Positions 1 through 5,424 of a stretch of 23,394 bases of DNA are shown here, one piece after another. This DNA is from a virus. The notes below the pieces were generated by a model. That model made no database searches. It worked only from the letters and a program-made list of their open reading frames with translations, and was not told the DNA's origin. Position 1 is the stretch's first letter, and each line of letters starts with the position of its first letter. The stretch spans positions 1 to 23,394 of the IMG/VR virus record IMGVR_UViG_3300020463_000139; one strand, written 5' to 3'. The position numbers and the translations under genes were made by a program.

Positions 1-1178
1 ACAGACCACATCTTACCTTTTTCAGTTTCAAGAGTGTATGAGTTTTCTTTGCCCTTTGAAGGTTTCCTTGGGCCTGTTGCAACTTTGTTATCAATCTCAT
101 CTTTCTTGATTGGTTGTCCTTTAGATTTTGCAAAAGCAGTTGCGTGTTGCATTGCAGATGAAAAGTCTTTATGGAATATATCGTAACCAGACGCAGACTT
201 ACCAGCTTCAAACTTTCTTTCATCAAGTTCAACTTCTTCTGACATCAACTTAGAAATTTCTTTACCAGCAATATAGTCTGGTAATACCTTTTCTAATGAC
301 TTTTTGATATTCAGTGAAGTCTTTACATCAGCTTTGAACTTGTCTGCAAATGGTTTCATCTGTTTATCTTTTTTCATCTTAGTATAAACATCTGCAATCT
401 TCATTGCAAGTTCTTTCATTTTACCTTCACCAAGTTCTTCTTCAATGTCCTCATTCTGTCTTTTTAGAACAGCAGAAACTTGTGGATGGTCAGACAATCC
501 CTTTTTAATCTTTTCGATTGCCTTAACTGCACCTGTCATGTTACCACCAGCATATCTTTTATCTGATGCAACACCAATTGCCATCTTGATTTCTTTTTTA
601 GAGAATGCTTCATCAAGATAATGACCACACATATATTCAACACCTTCATTCATTCTATTGTCATAGAATTTTGGTAGTGGGTCTTTTTGTATTCTATCTG
701 CATATTCTTTCTTTGCGGCATCGTCCTCTACTGGAACTTTACCATCAACCATATCTTTCACAAATCCCATAGTGGCGGCATTTGCATACAAACTACCACA
801 TCTTGCAGTAACAGTTTCTTTCAGTCCATCATAGATAATACTACCAGTAACGTGACCAAGTGTATCCAACATATCACTATCAACTTTTATGTTCATAGTT
901 GTGTACACATAATCTCTATGTGGAGCAGGAAAATCGTGTGGAATACTTTCATCAAGGACATAAGTTTCCATTTCTCCTTCACCAAATGAACCAAGTTTAT
1001 TCCACTTTATCATGGTTTCAGTTACTTCGTCTGGTTGACCATATTCCTCAATAAGTTTTTCTGCATATCCCTTTGCATCATCATTTTTCCAGTTCTTCAA
1101 AGAATCTTCTGGTTTCATTTGTTCAGTAAGACCCCAAACTTCTCTAAGAGCATCACTCATTGTTTTTGCGTATCTCAT
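1..1178 (-). CDS. conserved marine-phage protein, late block, C-terminus cut by window edge
   Basis: The frame is open from an ATG at 1178 to the window edge, giving about 392 residues with the C-terminus missing. A strong ribosome site (AAGGA, about 7 bases upstream) supports the start, which lies 10 bases after the stop of the preceding gene. I see no signal peptide or membrane segment. The N-terminal half carries a block with HDFPAPHRDYVYTT and TARCGSLYANA. The second half is charged and helical: GNMTGAVKAIEKIKKGL, then GEGKMKELAMKI, then EEVELDERKFEAGKSASGYD and ATGPRKPS. From memory these blocks recur in many uncultured marine myovirus proteins, shuffled in different combinations, but no biochemical role is known to me. 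The GEGKMK block also occurs in the neighbouring 866-aa protein. Position downstream of a late promoter suggests late expression and perhaps a virion or assembly role, which is inference. Confidence 0.8.
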   Translation of the reverse strand, partial: MRYAKTMSDALREVWGLTEQMKPEDSLKNWKNDDAKGYAEKLIEEYGQPDEVTETMIKWNKLGSFGEGEMETYVLDESIPHDFPAPHRDYVYTTMNIKVDSDMLDTLGHVTGSIIYDGLKETVTARCGSLYANAATMGFVKDMVDGKVPVEDDAAKKEYADRIQKDPLPKFYDNRMNEGVEYMCGHYLDEAFSKKEIKMAIGVASDKRYAGGNMTGAVKAIEKIKKGLSDHPQVSAVLKRQNEDIEEELGEGKMKELAMKIADVYTKMKKDKQMKPFADKFKADVKTSLNIKKSLEKVLPDYIAGKEISKLMSEEVELDERKFEAGKSASGYDIFHKDFSSAMQHATAFAKSKGQPIKKDEIDNKVATGPRKPSKGKENSYTLETEKGKMWS

Positions 1179-1188
1179 TTTTTCTTCC

Positions 1189-3789
1189 TTAGTTATCTAC
1201 TTTTGCACCGGCACGCCACTGGAAACAAGACCAGTATCTTGCCTTTGTTTTAGGGCCAGGGTCTTCACAGTTGTGTCTTGCACGAAATGACTTTCTTCTT
1301 TCTGGGTCATCACGATTGATTGACATATTTGGGTCACCAAATCTAACGACTACAACTTTACCCTTTTCGTTTTTTACATAAACCTTAAACTTTTTGTTTG
1401 GGTTTTCACTTGTGCGAATGGGGTCATTTAATTTTACTTTTCTACCTTGATATTCAGCATCTTCAACTATATGGTCAAAATGTTCAGAACAATCTTCACA
1501 ACATGGTTCAATTTTTTCCAACATTGTATGATAAGTTTTAGTTAATTTACTTAACCACTCATCACCATATCTTTCTTCATATTTATCTCTTACATTCTCA
1601 TCAAGATACCATTGTTCTAAAGACTCTTTAGTTACCTGTTGCCCAGGCGTTACTTTACGAGTATGGTCACCATAGTCCTTACCAATTTCGTAAGATGATT
1701 TTATAATTCTACCAGACCTTCTCTTCACTGGAACTTTGAGGTTCTTTAGTTTAGAATGTTTTCTAAGATATGTCTTTTCATCAACCTCTGCATCTTCACC
1801 TCTAACTTTTTTAGCAAGGTCTGCATCTGCTTTACCCCAAGTTCCTTTACTCTTTGTGGTAAATGAGTTCACTCTTGCAAATGCCCACTGTTGAGGAGTT
1901 GCACCTGGCCTGTGTCCAGTTTTGTATGCAGCCATTCCCCTATCATAAACCTTTTTAAGAATACTATAAGGCATACCAGACTTTTCTGCTTTCTTAACCA
2001 ATCCAGCAATCTTCTCATCAATTTGTTCAATGTCAGATTGTGATTTTATGTTACCATAAGTTTCACATGGTTCTTTTCCACAACCACAGTTTAAAGTTTG
2101 TTCACCCTTTGCACGTTTCATTTGTGCTCGTGTTGGTGCGCCTTTGTCACCAACCTTTCTCATTTTCTCACCAGAACCTTGTTTAATTCTCTGTCTTTTC
2201 TTATGGATGTTTGCCCAGAGACTTTCATCTATAAGACCTTCGTTCTTTGCCATTTTGGTTAAAGTTGCATAGTAGATTGACTTACCTTCTTCTTCACCAT
2301 ATCTGTCAATGAAATCTTTTATATCAATATCTTTTTCGTATTTCTTTAACTTGTCTTTTTCTGCATCAGTAAGTTTTCTTTCTAGGATAACTTCTTCCAT
2401 AGACACCATAAAGTCAATATGTTTTTGCACACTAATTGACTGTCTTTCATGTGACTTTGATGCTTTTTCTAATTCTTTAACAATATTTTGCAAATCCTTT
2501 TTGCCACCTTGACCCTCTGGCCCTTCTGCACCAGCTTTGTCCATTATCGCAATATGAGCAGCAACTCTTTCCGATTGTCCTTTGTGTGTTTTAACTGCAC
2601 CTTGTAATTCTTTGACCATTGCTTTCAAATCATTTAAGTCACCCTTTGCTTCACTGACATACCCCTCTTTCATTCCAAGTTCTTTTCTACGTTTATTGAT
2701 TTGGTCAATAATCTTTTTCTGTGCAGGCGAACCAGGCATAGTTTTCATTGCTTTGGTGTAGAGTTTCATTAACTCTGCATCCATAGTAATGTCTTTCATC
2801 TTACCTTCACCATACATCTGTTTGAACTTCTTGGTGTGTTTTGATGGTTTGGTGTCTGCATCTGCATCTCCAGGCGCAGGCCCCTTCTTTCCTTTTTCAA
2901 AATGTCTTGCACGAGCTTTCTTTGTTGCAGTTGACATTTCGTCACCATCAGCATCTTTTGCATAATACTTTGCTGGTTGTGTACCCTCTCTGTCCTTAAT
3001 GTCTTTGTCCTGTTTGACTTCTTCAAGGTTGTGTAACCACACTCTTCTCAAGTCTTCAAACACAACATAGTTTGTACCTTTGCGAATAATTGTACCTTCA
3101 TCACCGTCAGTTGTTTTCACAACATCACCGACATTCCAAATCTCCCCACGAATATAAAGGTCACGATTCAGTTCTTCTAGTGTAAGATTATACTCTTCAT
3201 TGATACCCATAAATTTACGAACATCATTAAATAATTTTGGCCCATCTGTAAATCCCTTGGGAAGACCAAGTTTAAACTGGTCAAAATCATTTGCTTGTGC
3301 AGCAGCACGCATTTTGGATGCAGACATTCCTGTTACACCCTCTGAATCTGGGTCACGTTCTCCAGCAGATACTACTTTAATATCATCAAATCCATAAAAA
3401 CCGTGTCTACCTTCTTCACCATTATAGTTGTTAAGTAAGTCTGAAAATTCATTTACCCTGTCAGAACCAACAACCATCACAATTGCTTTGTGTCCTTTAT
3501 TATAAAGTTCAACTGCAATATCAAATATATTTCTTGACCTACTTACTTTGATGTCTCTCTTATACTTTGGAAACATCTTTTTCATATATGCAACTTTCCT
3601 ATTGTGTGGAAGGGGGTCTTTCTTTGCATTTTGAGAATGAGATGGATATACATACATAAGAGAGCCTGGGTTCTTACCCTGTTCTCTACCAAGTGCATCT
3701 ATAAGTTTTTCGTGACCAGTTGTGGGTGGATTGAAACGACCAAACGTAAATACAGCAGTGTCACCTCTTGCTTCTAGAAAAGTTTTCAT
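1189..3789 (-). CDS. multi-module protein: N-terminal nucleotidyltransferase (HIGH-type) plus marine-phage modules
   Basis: 866 residues. The ATG at 3789 is chosen because AGGAG sits 6 bases upstream and it begins one base after the previous stop; a longer reading from 3840 would overlap that gene by about 50 bases. Residues about 10-195 look like a cytidylyltransferase/NMN-adenylyltransferase-type alpha/beta phosphodiesterase: GRFNPPTTGH (17-26), GSDR (108-111) and MSASKMR (155-161), equivalent to HxGH and the ISSTxxR motif. After it come a KOW-like segment (about 214-256), a KGTQP-like charged stretch (about 264-328), two related helical repeats (about 384-416 and 431-461), RKLTDAEKDKLKK with KDFIDRYG (471-498), SLWANIHKKRQRIKQGSG (523-540), a Cys cluster CGCGKEPC (568-575), a DUF5824-like block (about 602-655; name from memory), another Cys cluster CCEDC (763-767), and a C-terminal domain ending in KTKARYWSC. 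Substrate unknown. Late expression is inferred from the promoter at about 7190. Confidence 0.85.
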   Translation of the reverse strand: MKTFLEARGDTAVFTFGRFNPPTTGHEKLIDALGREQGKNPGSLMYVYPSHSQNAKKDPLPHNRKVAYMKKMFPKYKRDIKVSRSRNIFDIAVELYNKGHKAIVMVVGSDRVNEFSDLLNNYNGEEGRHGFYGFDDIKVVSAGERDPDSEGVTGMSASKMRAAAQANDFDQFKLGLPKGFTDGPKLFNDVRKFMGINEEYNLTLEELNRDLYIRGEIWNVGDVVKTTDGDEGTIIRKGTNYVVFEDLRRVWLHNLEEVKQDKDIKDREGTQPAKYYAKDADGDEMSTATKKARARHFEKGKKGPAPGDADADTKPSKHTKKFKQMYGEGKMKDITMDAELMKLYTKAMKTMPGSPAQKKIIDQINKRRKELGMKEGYVSEAKGDLNDLKAMVKELQGAVKTHKGQSERVAAHIAIMDKAGAEGPEGQGGKKDLQNIVKELEKASKSHERQSISVQKHIDFMVSMEEVILERKLTDAEKDKLKKYEKDIDIKDFIDRYGEEEGKSIYYATLTKMAKNEGLIDESLWANIHKKRQRIKQGSGEKMRKVGDKGAPTRAQMKRAKGEQTLNCGCGKEPCETYGNIKSQSDIEQIDEKIAGLVKKAEKSGMPYSILKKVYDRGMAAYKTGHRPGATPQQWAFARVNSFTTKSKGTWGKADADLAKKVRGEDAEVDEKTYLRKHSKLKNLKVPVKRRSGRIIKSSYEIGKDYGDHTRKVTPGQQVTKESLEQWYLDENVRDKYEERYGDEWLSKLTKTYHTMLEKIEPCCEDCSEHFDHIVEDAEYQGRKVKLNDPIRTSENPNKKFKVYVKNEKGKVVVVRFGDPNMSINRDDPERRKSFRARHNCEDPGPKTKARYWSCFQWRAGAKVDN

Positions 3790-3790
3790 A

Positions 3791-4192
3791 TCAATCTCCT
3801 GCCTGTGCTGCTTTATTTTGTTTAATTCGTTCACCCTCACCAGCTTTTAGTTTCCTAAGAATCTTCTGTGATATCTTGTCAATCACTTTACGTTTCTTGG
3901 CAACAATCTTCTGGTCAATCTGAATACGTTTTTGCATGGGGAGTTCTTTGTAGTTGACATCTGGGCCTAAACTACGTTTAATTACCATCTGTTTTGCTTG
4001 ACGTTTTGCAATCGCCTGCAATGCATCTGGGTTACGGCGTCTTATCCTTGCTCTTTTCTTTTTCATCTTAGTCGATGATTTTTTTGCGAGGATTTTCATG
4101 CGTCTACTCATTTTTCTGCGATTTTGCATAATTTGAGCAGGTGTGGCTTTTTCATCCACTTCGTCTTGAAATAATTCTTTAAAAGTTCTCAT
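3791..4192 (-). CDS. small, very basic conserved phage protein
   Basis: 133 residues, extremely rich in Lys and Arg, with clusters such as RRKMSRRMKILAKK, KKKRARIRRR and KKRKVIDKISQKILRKL. No catalytic motif, signal peptide or membrane span is visible; helix is expected throughout. The start codon overlaps the stop of the upstream gene as ATGA, so translation is probably coupled, and its own stop is one base before the start of the 866-aa protein. I recall similar basic proteins beginning MKTF/MRTF-x-E(F/L) in marine T4-like phages, always without known function. Binding to nucleic acid, or packing inside the prohead core, would fit the composition and the late position, but this is inference only. 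Confidence 0.8.
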   Translation of the reverse strand: MRTFKELFQDEVDEKATPAQIMQNRRKMSRRMKILAKKSSTKMKKKRARIRRRNPDALQAIAKRQAKQMVIKRSLGPDVNYKELPMQKRIQIDQKIVAKKRKVIDKISQKILRKLKAGEGERIKQNKAAQAGD

Positions 4193-5424
4193 TTATCCCA
4201 TGCCTTTATTGCAGTAAAGTTATTGAAACTAAATTCCATTCTATCAACAAGTTTTACTGCATCGCCTGATACTCTGTCAATTGCAACATACCCCTCTGGA
4301 TTAGTCACCTTAAATCCATTACTAGTCTTAATAAAAGTATCAGTTAAACCCTTTACACTATTTAGTTTTTTTACAATTCCCATCTTTGCATTGACCAAAT
4401 GCGATTGGAACGCAATAGCTGCCTCTAAGTTTGTTAAGTCTTTCTTAAATTCCCTTGCGTATTCTCTACCTTTTGTTCTTAGAACATCTTTACTTTTCTC
4501 AGTTTTTACATTATCAACCTCTTTTGCAAAGTGATTTTCAACCCAAGTGATATATCCTGCTGCGTGTTGTTTTGGGTTCTTGACTGCTTCACCCTTACGA
4601 ACCTTTGAGTTGTTGTATGTCTTGAGTGATGCACCGGCAAGTTTACCTGTTAGTGAATTCTGTAATCTAAGGAACTTGGATAGTTTTGCAGAGTTGATTT
4701 GATGAAATGATTTACCAGCATTTGACAAATGACCAGTTACTTCTGCATTTTCAGCAGATGTAAATGTTGCAGTACCAGACGCATCTTTATATGTTGCGTC
4801 ATCCATCCATACTGTGGATGTCTTTTTCAATTTACTAATATTTGCACCGAATGATGCTTTCATATCTTGCAGTGCAGAACCAGTGTATGTTGTGTGCCAC
4901 ACGACACCAACCTTTGCACTGTTGATTACTTTACCAAGGTCACTATCTGTTGGAACAGCATATACAATAGTATTAGGTTGAAAAGTATAATACTTTGTGC
5001 CGTCAATGGTTGTCTTTTCAACATCGTCTGTAAACATGAGGTCACCTTGCAGTACCCCTGTAATACCCAACTTAGAAAATTCTGCAAGTGCAATTTTAAA
5101 TTTAGAATTAAGTGCTCCAGATAAATCATCATCTATTTCTGCCTCCGTCTTGTAGAGTTTCGGTTCTACGTTAAACACAGATTTCTTTGCAACGAAAAAC
5201 TTATTATCCTCTGGGTCAATACCAGCAAATATCGCAGGCGCACCATCCCACTTCACAGTCATATTAACTGAACTGCGACTTGTACCAGAGAACATATCTC
5301 TCAGTGAACGCATGAAGTTGATTGCAGCACGACCACCAGGCACACCAAAGTTAAGTATCTCATCTTCAATATGTTCAAGGTGTAGGTTTTTTCCAGCCTT
5401 GTTTTCCATCAAACTAATCATCAC
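4189..5424 (-). CDS. ligase/nucleotidyltransferase-superfamily-like protein (possibly DUF6267 family)
   Basis: 411 residues from a GTG at 5424 that overlaps the upstream stop as GTGA; an ATG directly after it (5421) is equally possible, and a later in-frame ATG at 5409 starts MENKAGKN. I recognise the family from cyanophages (annotated there, from memory, as DUF6267) through LEHIEDEILNFGVPGG (16-31), LRDMFSG and VKWDGAPAIFAGIDP. The protein shows signatures of covalent nucleotidyltransferases (DNA/RNA ligases, capping enzymes): KWDG at 58-61 as motif I, LQGDLMF at 125-131 as a motif III-like block, EGYV at 377-380 as motif IV, and VKLVDR at 390-395 as motif V. The stretch between III and IV is much longer than in T4 RNA ligases and looks helical. 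Neighbours suggest late expression. The fold and activity are inferred; the gene call is firm. Confidence 0.85.
   Translation of the reverse strand: MMISLMENKAGKNLHLEHIEDEILNFGVPGGRAAINFMRSLRDMFSGTSRSSVNMTVKWDGAPAIFAGIDPEDNKFFVAKKSVFNVEPKLYKTEAEIDDDLSGALNSKFKIALAEFSKLGITGVLQGDLMFTDDVEKTTIDGTKYYTFQPNTIVYAVPTDSDLGKVINSAKVGVVWHTTYTGSALQDMKASFGANISKLKKTSTVWMDDATYKDASGTATFTSAENAEVTGHLSNAGKSFHQINSAKLSKFLRLQNSLTGKLAGASLKTYNNSKVRKGEAVKNPKQHAAGYITWVENHFAKEVDNVKTEKSKDVLRTKGREYAREFKKDLTNLEAAIAFQSHLVNAKMGIVKKLNSVKGLTDTFIKTSNGFKVTNPEGYVAIDRVSGDAVKLVDRMEFSFNNFTAIKAWDK

Follow-up and report, generated by a model that had tools for sequence, protein, structure and literature searches.

The virus record IMGVR_UViG_3300020463_000139, 23,394 bases long and with no larger assembly behind it (hereafter the window, meaning the whole stretch of DNA analysed), encodes a string protein of 866 amino acids (aa), in which a nucleotidylyltransferase domain is followed by about 12 short modules (Table 1). 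An initial annotation made from the letters had pointed to this open reading frame (ORF), and it is present, on the minus strand. We lean, with moderate confidence, towards the view that the product of the string gene is a capsid-cargo precursor, which is targeted to the head and cut by the head protease and brings an adenylyltransferase and small proteins to the head. The joints between modules often resemble head-protease cut sites and the protein is therefore probably loaded into the virus particle; as the head protease could cut at sites between modules, one gene would supply the enzyme and several small proteins.

Module shuffling among relatives

Of 232 confirmed relatives, 80 IMG/VR loci were kept, each with a single ORF matching the string; together with the window copy (L001), which was not among the 80, this gave 81 proteins. 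Module orders were read with hand-made anchor patterns, which diverged modules may escape. The 68 complete ORFs fell into 24 module architectures. The enzyme stood first in all 68 and the YQG/KARYWSC module last wherever present, and the middle modules were gained, lost or swapped between relatives. RKLT precedes the LW module in the window and follows it in L004, and the CW module lies on either side of GTQPAKYY, depending on the relative. The modules described in the initial annotation are not alignment artefacts. Chimeric assembly was considered as a source of the architectures and rejected, since the same ones recur across many contigs.

The blocks named in that annotation, GTQPAKYY, RKLT/KDFIDRYG, LWANIHKKR and KARYWSC, are all present in the string protein, and its DUF5824-like block matched Pfam PF19141 above cut-off (60.3 bits against 25). 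They were said to recur in other marine phage proteins, and scans with two modules found 21 and 26 loci carrying them; 23 further non-redundant proteins (29 loci of the two scans) hold the same modules, in some cases in far larger genomes and with no enzyme domain in the protein. The block called KOW-like is encoded apart from the enzyme in Syn1; its name found no backing in Pfam at E<=1, in searches whose filters can lose short domains. The C-terminal module gave a DUF5754 (PF19058) match below cut-off (0.0024, 18.3 bits against 27.4). Cysteines lie at 568/570/575, 763/764/767 and 841/855. No Pfam peptidase profile reached its cut-off in the string protein, the only weak match being DUF6782 'putative metallopeptidase' (E 0.069, 12.8 bits against 27).

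Two side observations concern the relatives. In Syn1 the 92-aa KOW-like module is Syn1_162 (L141:4730-5008); the name 'ribonucleotide reductase alpha subunit' that it bears, as does phrog_4808, is probably a mis-annotation. A far relative in another marine phage (L097:1615-6123, plus strand) is an open-ended string of 1,503 aa that joins a PolyA_pol head, an HD domain, a CTP_transf_like domain and a region in which KLDGQN resembles a ligase motif, a domain set that, as predicted from sequence, looks RNA-repair-like in one chain.

Module joints and the head-protease motif

We listed the sequence before each module and scored column conservation over thinned contexts, setting the joint Glu blind to P3, the residue two before it; [LI]-x-E is the form of the T4 head-protease site. 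Of the 18 modules for which three or more thinned contexts remained, 10 had Glu as the first column from the left to reach 70% conservation, and the sequence ahead of it was unrelated from case to case. P3 was Leu or Ile in 27 of 72 joint contexts, compared with 235 of 1,628 other Glu residues in the same proteins (odds ratio 3.56, p 2.3e-6), in a test conceived after the sequences were seen, on partly dependent contexts and with the ten joint Glu hand-picked from conserved columns. Offsets -1, -3, -4, -5 and -6 from the joint Glu (P2 and P4-P7) showed no effect (p 0.11-0.71). The P3 effect persisted when any single module was removed (p <=0.0011), and p was 0.011 without DUF5824 and KMAIG together; a less thinned count, to which the SxEEWY module contributed 0 contexts, gave 35 of 76.

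The clearest single case of the same joint free and fused is a Zeta-type kinase. As the free protein gp129 of HTVC008M it begins MIPFILKE↓GLYDPGIFKA (the arrow marks a candidate cut), and fused as a module in L116 its joint reads IDLEE↓GVNDPGIFKA. These Zeta-toxin/AAA_33-type loci lie at L082:19342-20004 (free gene) and L116:2749-6138 (fused module).

N-terminal targeting-like peptides

Ahead of the enzyme, the 25 aligned relatives have a short stretch of variable length ending E↓A, as in MKKFSEIIE↓A, MKSFKDIRE↓A and MKRFVDLQE↓A, with two of them (L109, L111) reading E↓Q instead. Many relatives of the nearby DUF6267 protein have N-termini of the form M-x-x-F-x-x-(F/Y/H)-L-x-E↓D.

In cyanophage S-CREM2 we counted [LI]xE ending within residues 6-25, with tail and shell classes assigned by us and the virion list taken from the published Table 3. 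The motif was carried by 9 of 15 virion-detected proteins of neither tail nor shell type, compared with 24 of 134 undetected proteins of at least 60 aa (p 9e-4), by 3 of 33 tail-type and by 2 of 4 shell/scaffold proteins. One of the nine, gp154, is the orthologous enzyme and starts MKNFSSFLTE↓A; its N-terminus looks like those of the S-adenosylmethionine (SAM) hydrolase gp6 and of gp13 and gp14, and that of Cas9 gp12 (ASFMAE↓A) is close. Similar strings occur in the major capsid proteins of S-CREM2 (GLLTE↓A), Melnitz (AFLSE↓A) and HTVC008M (AFLGE↓I), about where T4 gp23 loses its 65-residue peptide. A crude N-terminal pattern scan of the full Melnitz and HTVC008M genomes gave few matches and was not used.

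The virion-detected SAM hydrolase, APH kinase, gp13, gp136, Cas9 and enzyme of S-CREM2 have an FxxF(L/M/F)xE-like N-terminus in common (L134, L136, L087), which is a candidate consensus for a Kyanoviridae targeting signal. S-CREM2 gp160 (L087:13343-14236) and the major capsid protein (3482-4852) share a segment GFTGAAAP-GP-AG-DP, which in the capsid protein lies just past the presumed cut site.

Virion detection of orthologues

For packaging in the virion we draw on published proteomics of orthologues, in the portions of those reports that were available. The orthologous enzyme was detected in virions of S-SM1 (as T4-GC190), S-CREM2 (ORF154, 3 peptides) and S-SCSM1 (ORF91), and is also stated for S-CBWM1 and S-SZBM1. 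Virion-detected too are S-CREM2 gp155, gp156 and the modular gp160, the last with 7 unique peptides. For the window clade no virion data were found in the literature, and the published account of Melnitz, in the part covered, does not mention this gene.

The nucleotidylyltransferase domain

The adenylyltransferase-like domain proposed at residues 10-195 was recovered with slightly wider bounds: aa 7-198 match the PHROG cytidyltransferase profile with an E of 5.8e-82. Pfam CTP_transf_like (PF01467) fell just below its 21-bit cut-off on the window protein (7.8e-4, 20.1 bits) and rose above it in two relatives (L110, 27.5 bits; L124, 25.6 bits). Signatures of the nucleotidylyltransferase superfamily are (H/T)xGH and a second, ISSTxxR-like motif. 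The first reads T23-T24-G25-H26 here, so that the HxGH of the initial annotation is corrected to TxGH; it is unchanged in 25 of 25 aligned relatives, as are S156, K159, M160 and R161 of the second. Loss of the catalytic histidines in homologues, together with absence from virions, had been named beforehand as a refuting outcome, as had modules that were alignment artefacts; the GH of the motif is conserved, and neither outcome was found.

An AlphaFold2 model of the domain (pLDDT 82) has the Rossmann-like fold of phosphopantetheine adenylyltransferase (PPAT) and of adenylyltransferases acting on nicotinamide mononucleotide (NMN) or nicotinic acid mononucleotide (NaMN). The best Foldseek E was 9.6e-5, and the top VIA-align match was 5h16_B (Z 13.7, root-mean-square deviation (rmsd) 2.8, 155 aligned). 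Among the matches listed, PPATs scored Z 12.0-13.7 and NMNAT-type chains Z 11.9-12.6, an overlap too close to favour PPAT or NMNAT. The NadR-type NCBIfam model TIGR01526 gave 19.2 bits, its cut-off of 341 also counting NadR's other domain, and profile searches of the PDB returned nothing useful (best E 0.075). Orthologues are labelled NMNAT in the published annotations available. The substrate would most likely be NMN or NaMN, with pantetheine phosphate or another compound as alternatives.

Gene neighbourhood

The window is a Kyanoviridae-type phage fragment, and its gene order resembles that of the Kyanoviridae phages HTVC008M and Melnitz. DNA polymerase, a RecA/UvsX-like gene and a helicase are followed by a five-gene block, which encodes a 578-aa protein, DUF6267, a basic 133-aa protein, the string protein and a second modular protein. 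The string gene has a good ribosome-binding site (AGGAG) close upstream of its ATG; an alternative GTG start at 3840 would lengthen the protein by 17 aa, and M1 is the same in all 25 aligned relatives.

DUF6267 has an invariant K58-W-D-G and a C-terminal EGxV...KLV. A PDB profile search (best E 0.16) gave nothing useful and Foldseek no significant match. In the VIA structural comparison many rows were RNA, tRNA or DNA ligases, aligned starting at the K58-W-D-G motif, the top ones being 1xdn (Z 6.8, rmsd 2.9, 98 aligned) and 2hvr (Z 6.5), all below Z 8 and too low alone. From the model, DUF6267 looks like an RNA/DNA-ligase-type nucleotidyltransferase, and the N-termini of the family look capsid-targeting. 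The Melnitz gene in the place of the 578-aa gene, gene 15, begins MQGFKTFLSE↓A.

The 133-aa neighbour is extremely rich in Lys and Arg, has a targeting-like N-terminus and is perhaps a DNA-binding internal head protein. In the second modular protein, HKDFSSA and KMAIG modules are placed after the VELDE and YLDE joints.

Table 1. Coordinates of the string protein, its modules and the adjoining genes in the window (arrow, candidate cut)
Feature	Position	Strand	Remarks
Second modular protein, 3' end lost at window edge	3..1178	-	N-terminus GLTE↓Q; internal VELDE↓R, YLDE↓A joints
Modular string protein, 866 aa	1189..3789	-	ATG at 3789; 1189 = last base of stop, included
C-terminal YQGRKVKLN...KARYWSC module, aa 777-866	1192..1461	-	encoded on its own as gp131 in HTVC008M
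SLEQWY module with CCEDC, aa 721-776	1462..1629	-	end HIVE
YEIGKDY module, aa 697-720	1630..1701	-	joint without [LI]xE
KTYLRKHSKLKNLKVP basic module, aa 672-696	1702..1776	-	
DUF5824 module, aa 593-671	1777..2013	-	end EVDE; Pfam 2.7e-16
CGCGKEPC Cys cluster and linker, aa 564-592	2014..2100	-	end QIDE
SLWANIHKKR basic module, aa 523-563	2101..2223	-	end RAKGE
RKLT / KDFIDRYG module, aa 471-522	2224..2379	-	end LIDE
Helical-looking stretch, aa 376-470	2380..2664	-	end VILE; appearance from sequence
GKMKD...MPGSPAQKK module, aa 329-375	2665..2805	-	
GTQPAKYY basic module, aa 258-328	2806..3018	-	end MYGE; left joint without family-wide Glu
KOW-like module, aa 199-257	3019..3195	-	end NLEE; separate 92-aa ORF in Syn1
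Nucleotidylyltransferase domain, aa 7-198	3196..3771	-	TxGH 23-26, SASKMR 156-161; profile and fold matches
N-terminal MKTFLE↓A, aa 1-6, candidate capsid-targeting peptide and head-protease site	3772..3789	-	E6-A7 nearly invariant
Very basic neighbour, 133 aa	3791..4192	-	N-terminus MRTFKELFQDEVDE↓K
DUF6267 neighbour, RNA/DNA-ligase-like (K58-W-D-G)	4189..5424	-	N-terminus SLME↓N; relatives MINFSSYLTE↓DK
Neighbour of 578 aa	5421..7157	-	N-terminus MKSFNQLYE↓V

Discussion

We propose that a short N-terminal peptide, working like the targeting peptides of Alt and the T4 internal proteins, would guide the chain into the core of the prohead, and that a gp21-type head protease of the phage would remove this peptide after Glu and could also cut at [LI]-x-E joints between modules. 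One gene would then yield the adenylyltransferase and several small, mostly basic proteins in the head interior. This cargo may be ejected together with the DNA, and the enzyme could start work immediately in the newly infected cell, where it would most likely convert NMN or NaMN to nicotinamide adenine dinucleotide (NAD). N-terminal cleavage is the likelier of the two predicted cleavages; by analogy, the string protein would probably also be cut at several joints.

Several observations weigh against this proposal. In the string protein of the window itself the P3 residue of the N-terminal site TFLE↓A is Phe, not L/I; the Syn1 enzyme is without the N-terminal peptide; the GTQPAKYY module has no Glu joint; and since none of the 18 contexts of the YEIG, SxEEWY and YQG joints (3 of 10 types) has [LI]xE, the motif is a feature of many joints but not of every one. 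Automatic breakpoints, which place joints only to within several residues, gave mixed answers in three tests: 48 of 234 breakpoints had an [LI]xE no more than 4 aa away, where shifting gave 20.9 +/- 3.8; Glu residues close to breakpoints showed no excess of P3 L/I (39/279 vs 166/1,140); and the excess over shuffled linkers was small ([LIV]xE 46/166 vs 32.5 +/- 4.4). In the available portions of the virion studies the enzyme was not found in S-PM2, and the authors caution of co-purification or contamination for S-CREM2, where the enzyme gave only 3 peptides, and for S-SCSM1; the literature found on this family holds no report of a cleavage product or of ejection. Of the two fates that the initial annotation had offered, delivery of the adenylyltransferase with the capsid is backed by virion-detected orthologues in S-SM1, S-CREM2 and S-SCSM1, the last two under that caveat, and a processed virion polyprotein has support at the level of sequence, with P3 L/I and targeting-like N-termini in its favour and the three motif-free joint types against it.

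Other readings place these data differently. One that we entertain only tentatively is a true head polyprotein, a reshuffled cargo chain punctuated with head-protease sites and converted in the prohead into many small packaged proteins, in which evolution could add or swap cargo by inserting an E-ended cassette; the adenylyltransferase, the ligase-like DUF6267 and the Zeta-type kinase would then form an injected kit for nucleotide/RNA repair or NAD maintenance, to which far relatives would add a poly(A)-polymerase/CCA-type nucleotidyltransferase and an HD domain. We find it rather unlikely that the virion protein is left in one piece, losing at most its N-terminal peptide, with the Glu/Lys-rich joints as flexible linkers and recombination seams. 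Glu is indeed enriched near automatic breakpoints whatever the P3 residue (173 of 234 within 4 aa, against 110.7 by shifting) and several joints lack the motif, but a linker has no need of L/I exactly at P3, and the joint in front of the fused kinase is the same as the start of the free kinase protein. A scaffold-like protein of the prohead core, mostly digested with only the enzyme kept, would parallel T4 gp22, gp67 and gp68, which gp21 chops to small peptides according to the accounts available; many modules are short and basic, and the Melnitz core protein contains SLEE↓GKMTK, which resembles the string joints. Yet each module is conserved in its own right, Cys clusters or DUF matches being present in some, and modular gp160 is found in S-CREM2 virions, so that we regard this fate as improbable. 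Most improbable to us is an ordinary intracellular enzyme of nucleotide metabolism with nucleic-acid-binding appendages, the virion reports being contamination: the authors' own caveat, the absence from S-PM2 virions and the position among replication and metabolism genes speak for it, whereas detection in several phages by separate studies, detection of the S-CREM2 neighbours 155, 156 and 160 and the N-terminal motif enrichment in S-CREM2 virion proteins speak against it.

If the string gene does encode a capsid-cargo precursor, marine T4-like phages would have evolved a polyprotein logic for capsid cargo, with scissor sites built into swappable cassettes. It would become simple to predict, from the motifs at N-termini and joints, which cargo the abundant phages of the ocean deliver into SAR11, OM43 and cyanobacteria, and a role as head cargo would account for several families whose function is unknown (DUF5824, DUF6267).

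The known kinds that the string protein touches are phage NMNAT-like virion proteins, processed T4 cargo and polyvalent proteins; a cassette chain with head-protease-like punctuation was not found in the literature on marine T4-like phages, in a search of limited scope that took in few subscription papers; for the DUF families it brought up work on a haptophyte virus and on polinton-like viruses. The cyanophage T4-GC190 'cytidyltransferase' or NMNAT-like protein is the orthologous enzyme, adjoining DUF6267 in Syn1 and virion-detected in other cyanophages, but it is a single-domain gene (189 aa in Syn1; 286 aa in S-CREM2, including part of the KOW-like region), whereas the window clade has the enzyme fused to a variable module chain.

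In T4, according to the portions of the literature available, internal proteins carry an N-terminal peptide that targets them to the core, gp21 cleaves after Glu, and Alt is cut at ITE-6 and, near its C-terminus, at LTE-619. Relatives of the string protein have a putative counterpart of the N-terminal peptide of IPI-III and Alt, with last residues that fit [LI]xE, and would have in common with Alt an enzyme carried in the head, which in Alt is an ADP-ribosyltransferase and here of adenylyltransferase type; each T4 protein is a single unit cut once or twice, whereas here up to 12 shuffled modules carry repeated candidate sites. SPN3US and phiKZ, as far as the available accounts go, also have head cargo cut after Glu by a prohead protease (A-x-E in SPN3US), but as long single propeptides and not as module chains.

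Polyvalent proteins (Iyer et al. 2017, PMC5512222) likewise hold many disparate domains in one chain, a feature of the string proteins too, and in the portion of that paper available its authors predict that they reach the cell together with the DNA and liken them to polyproteins; 'cyanophage' has 0 occurrences there and 'T4-like' a single one, where Alt-type ADP-ribosyltransferases are treated. Release of their domains is ascribed to an embedded peptidase, a common although not universal feature, whereas the joints of the string protein look like sites for a separate head protease.

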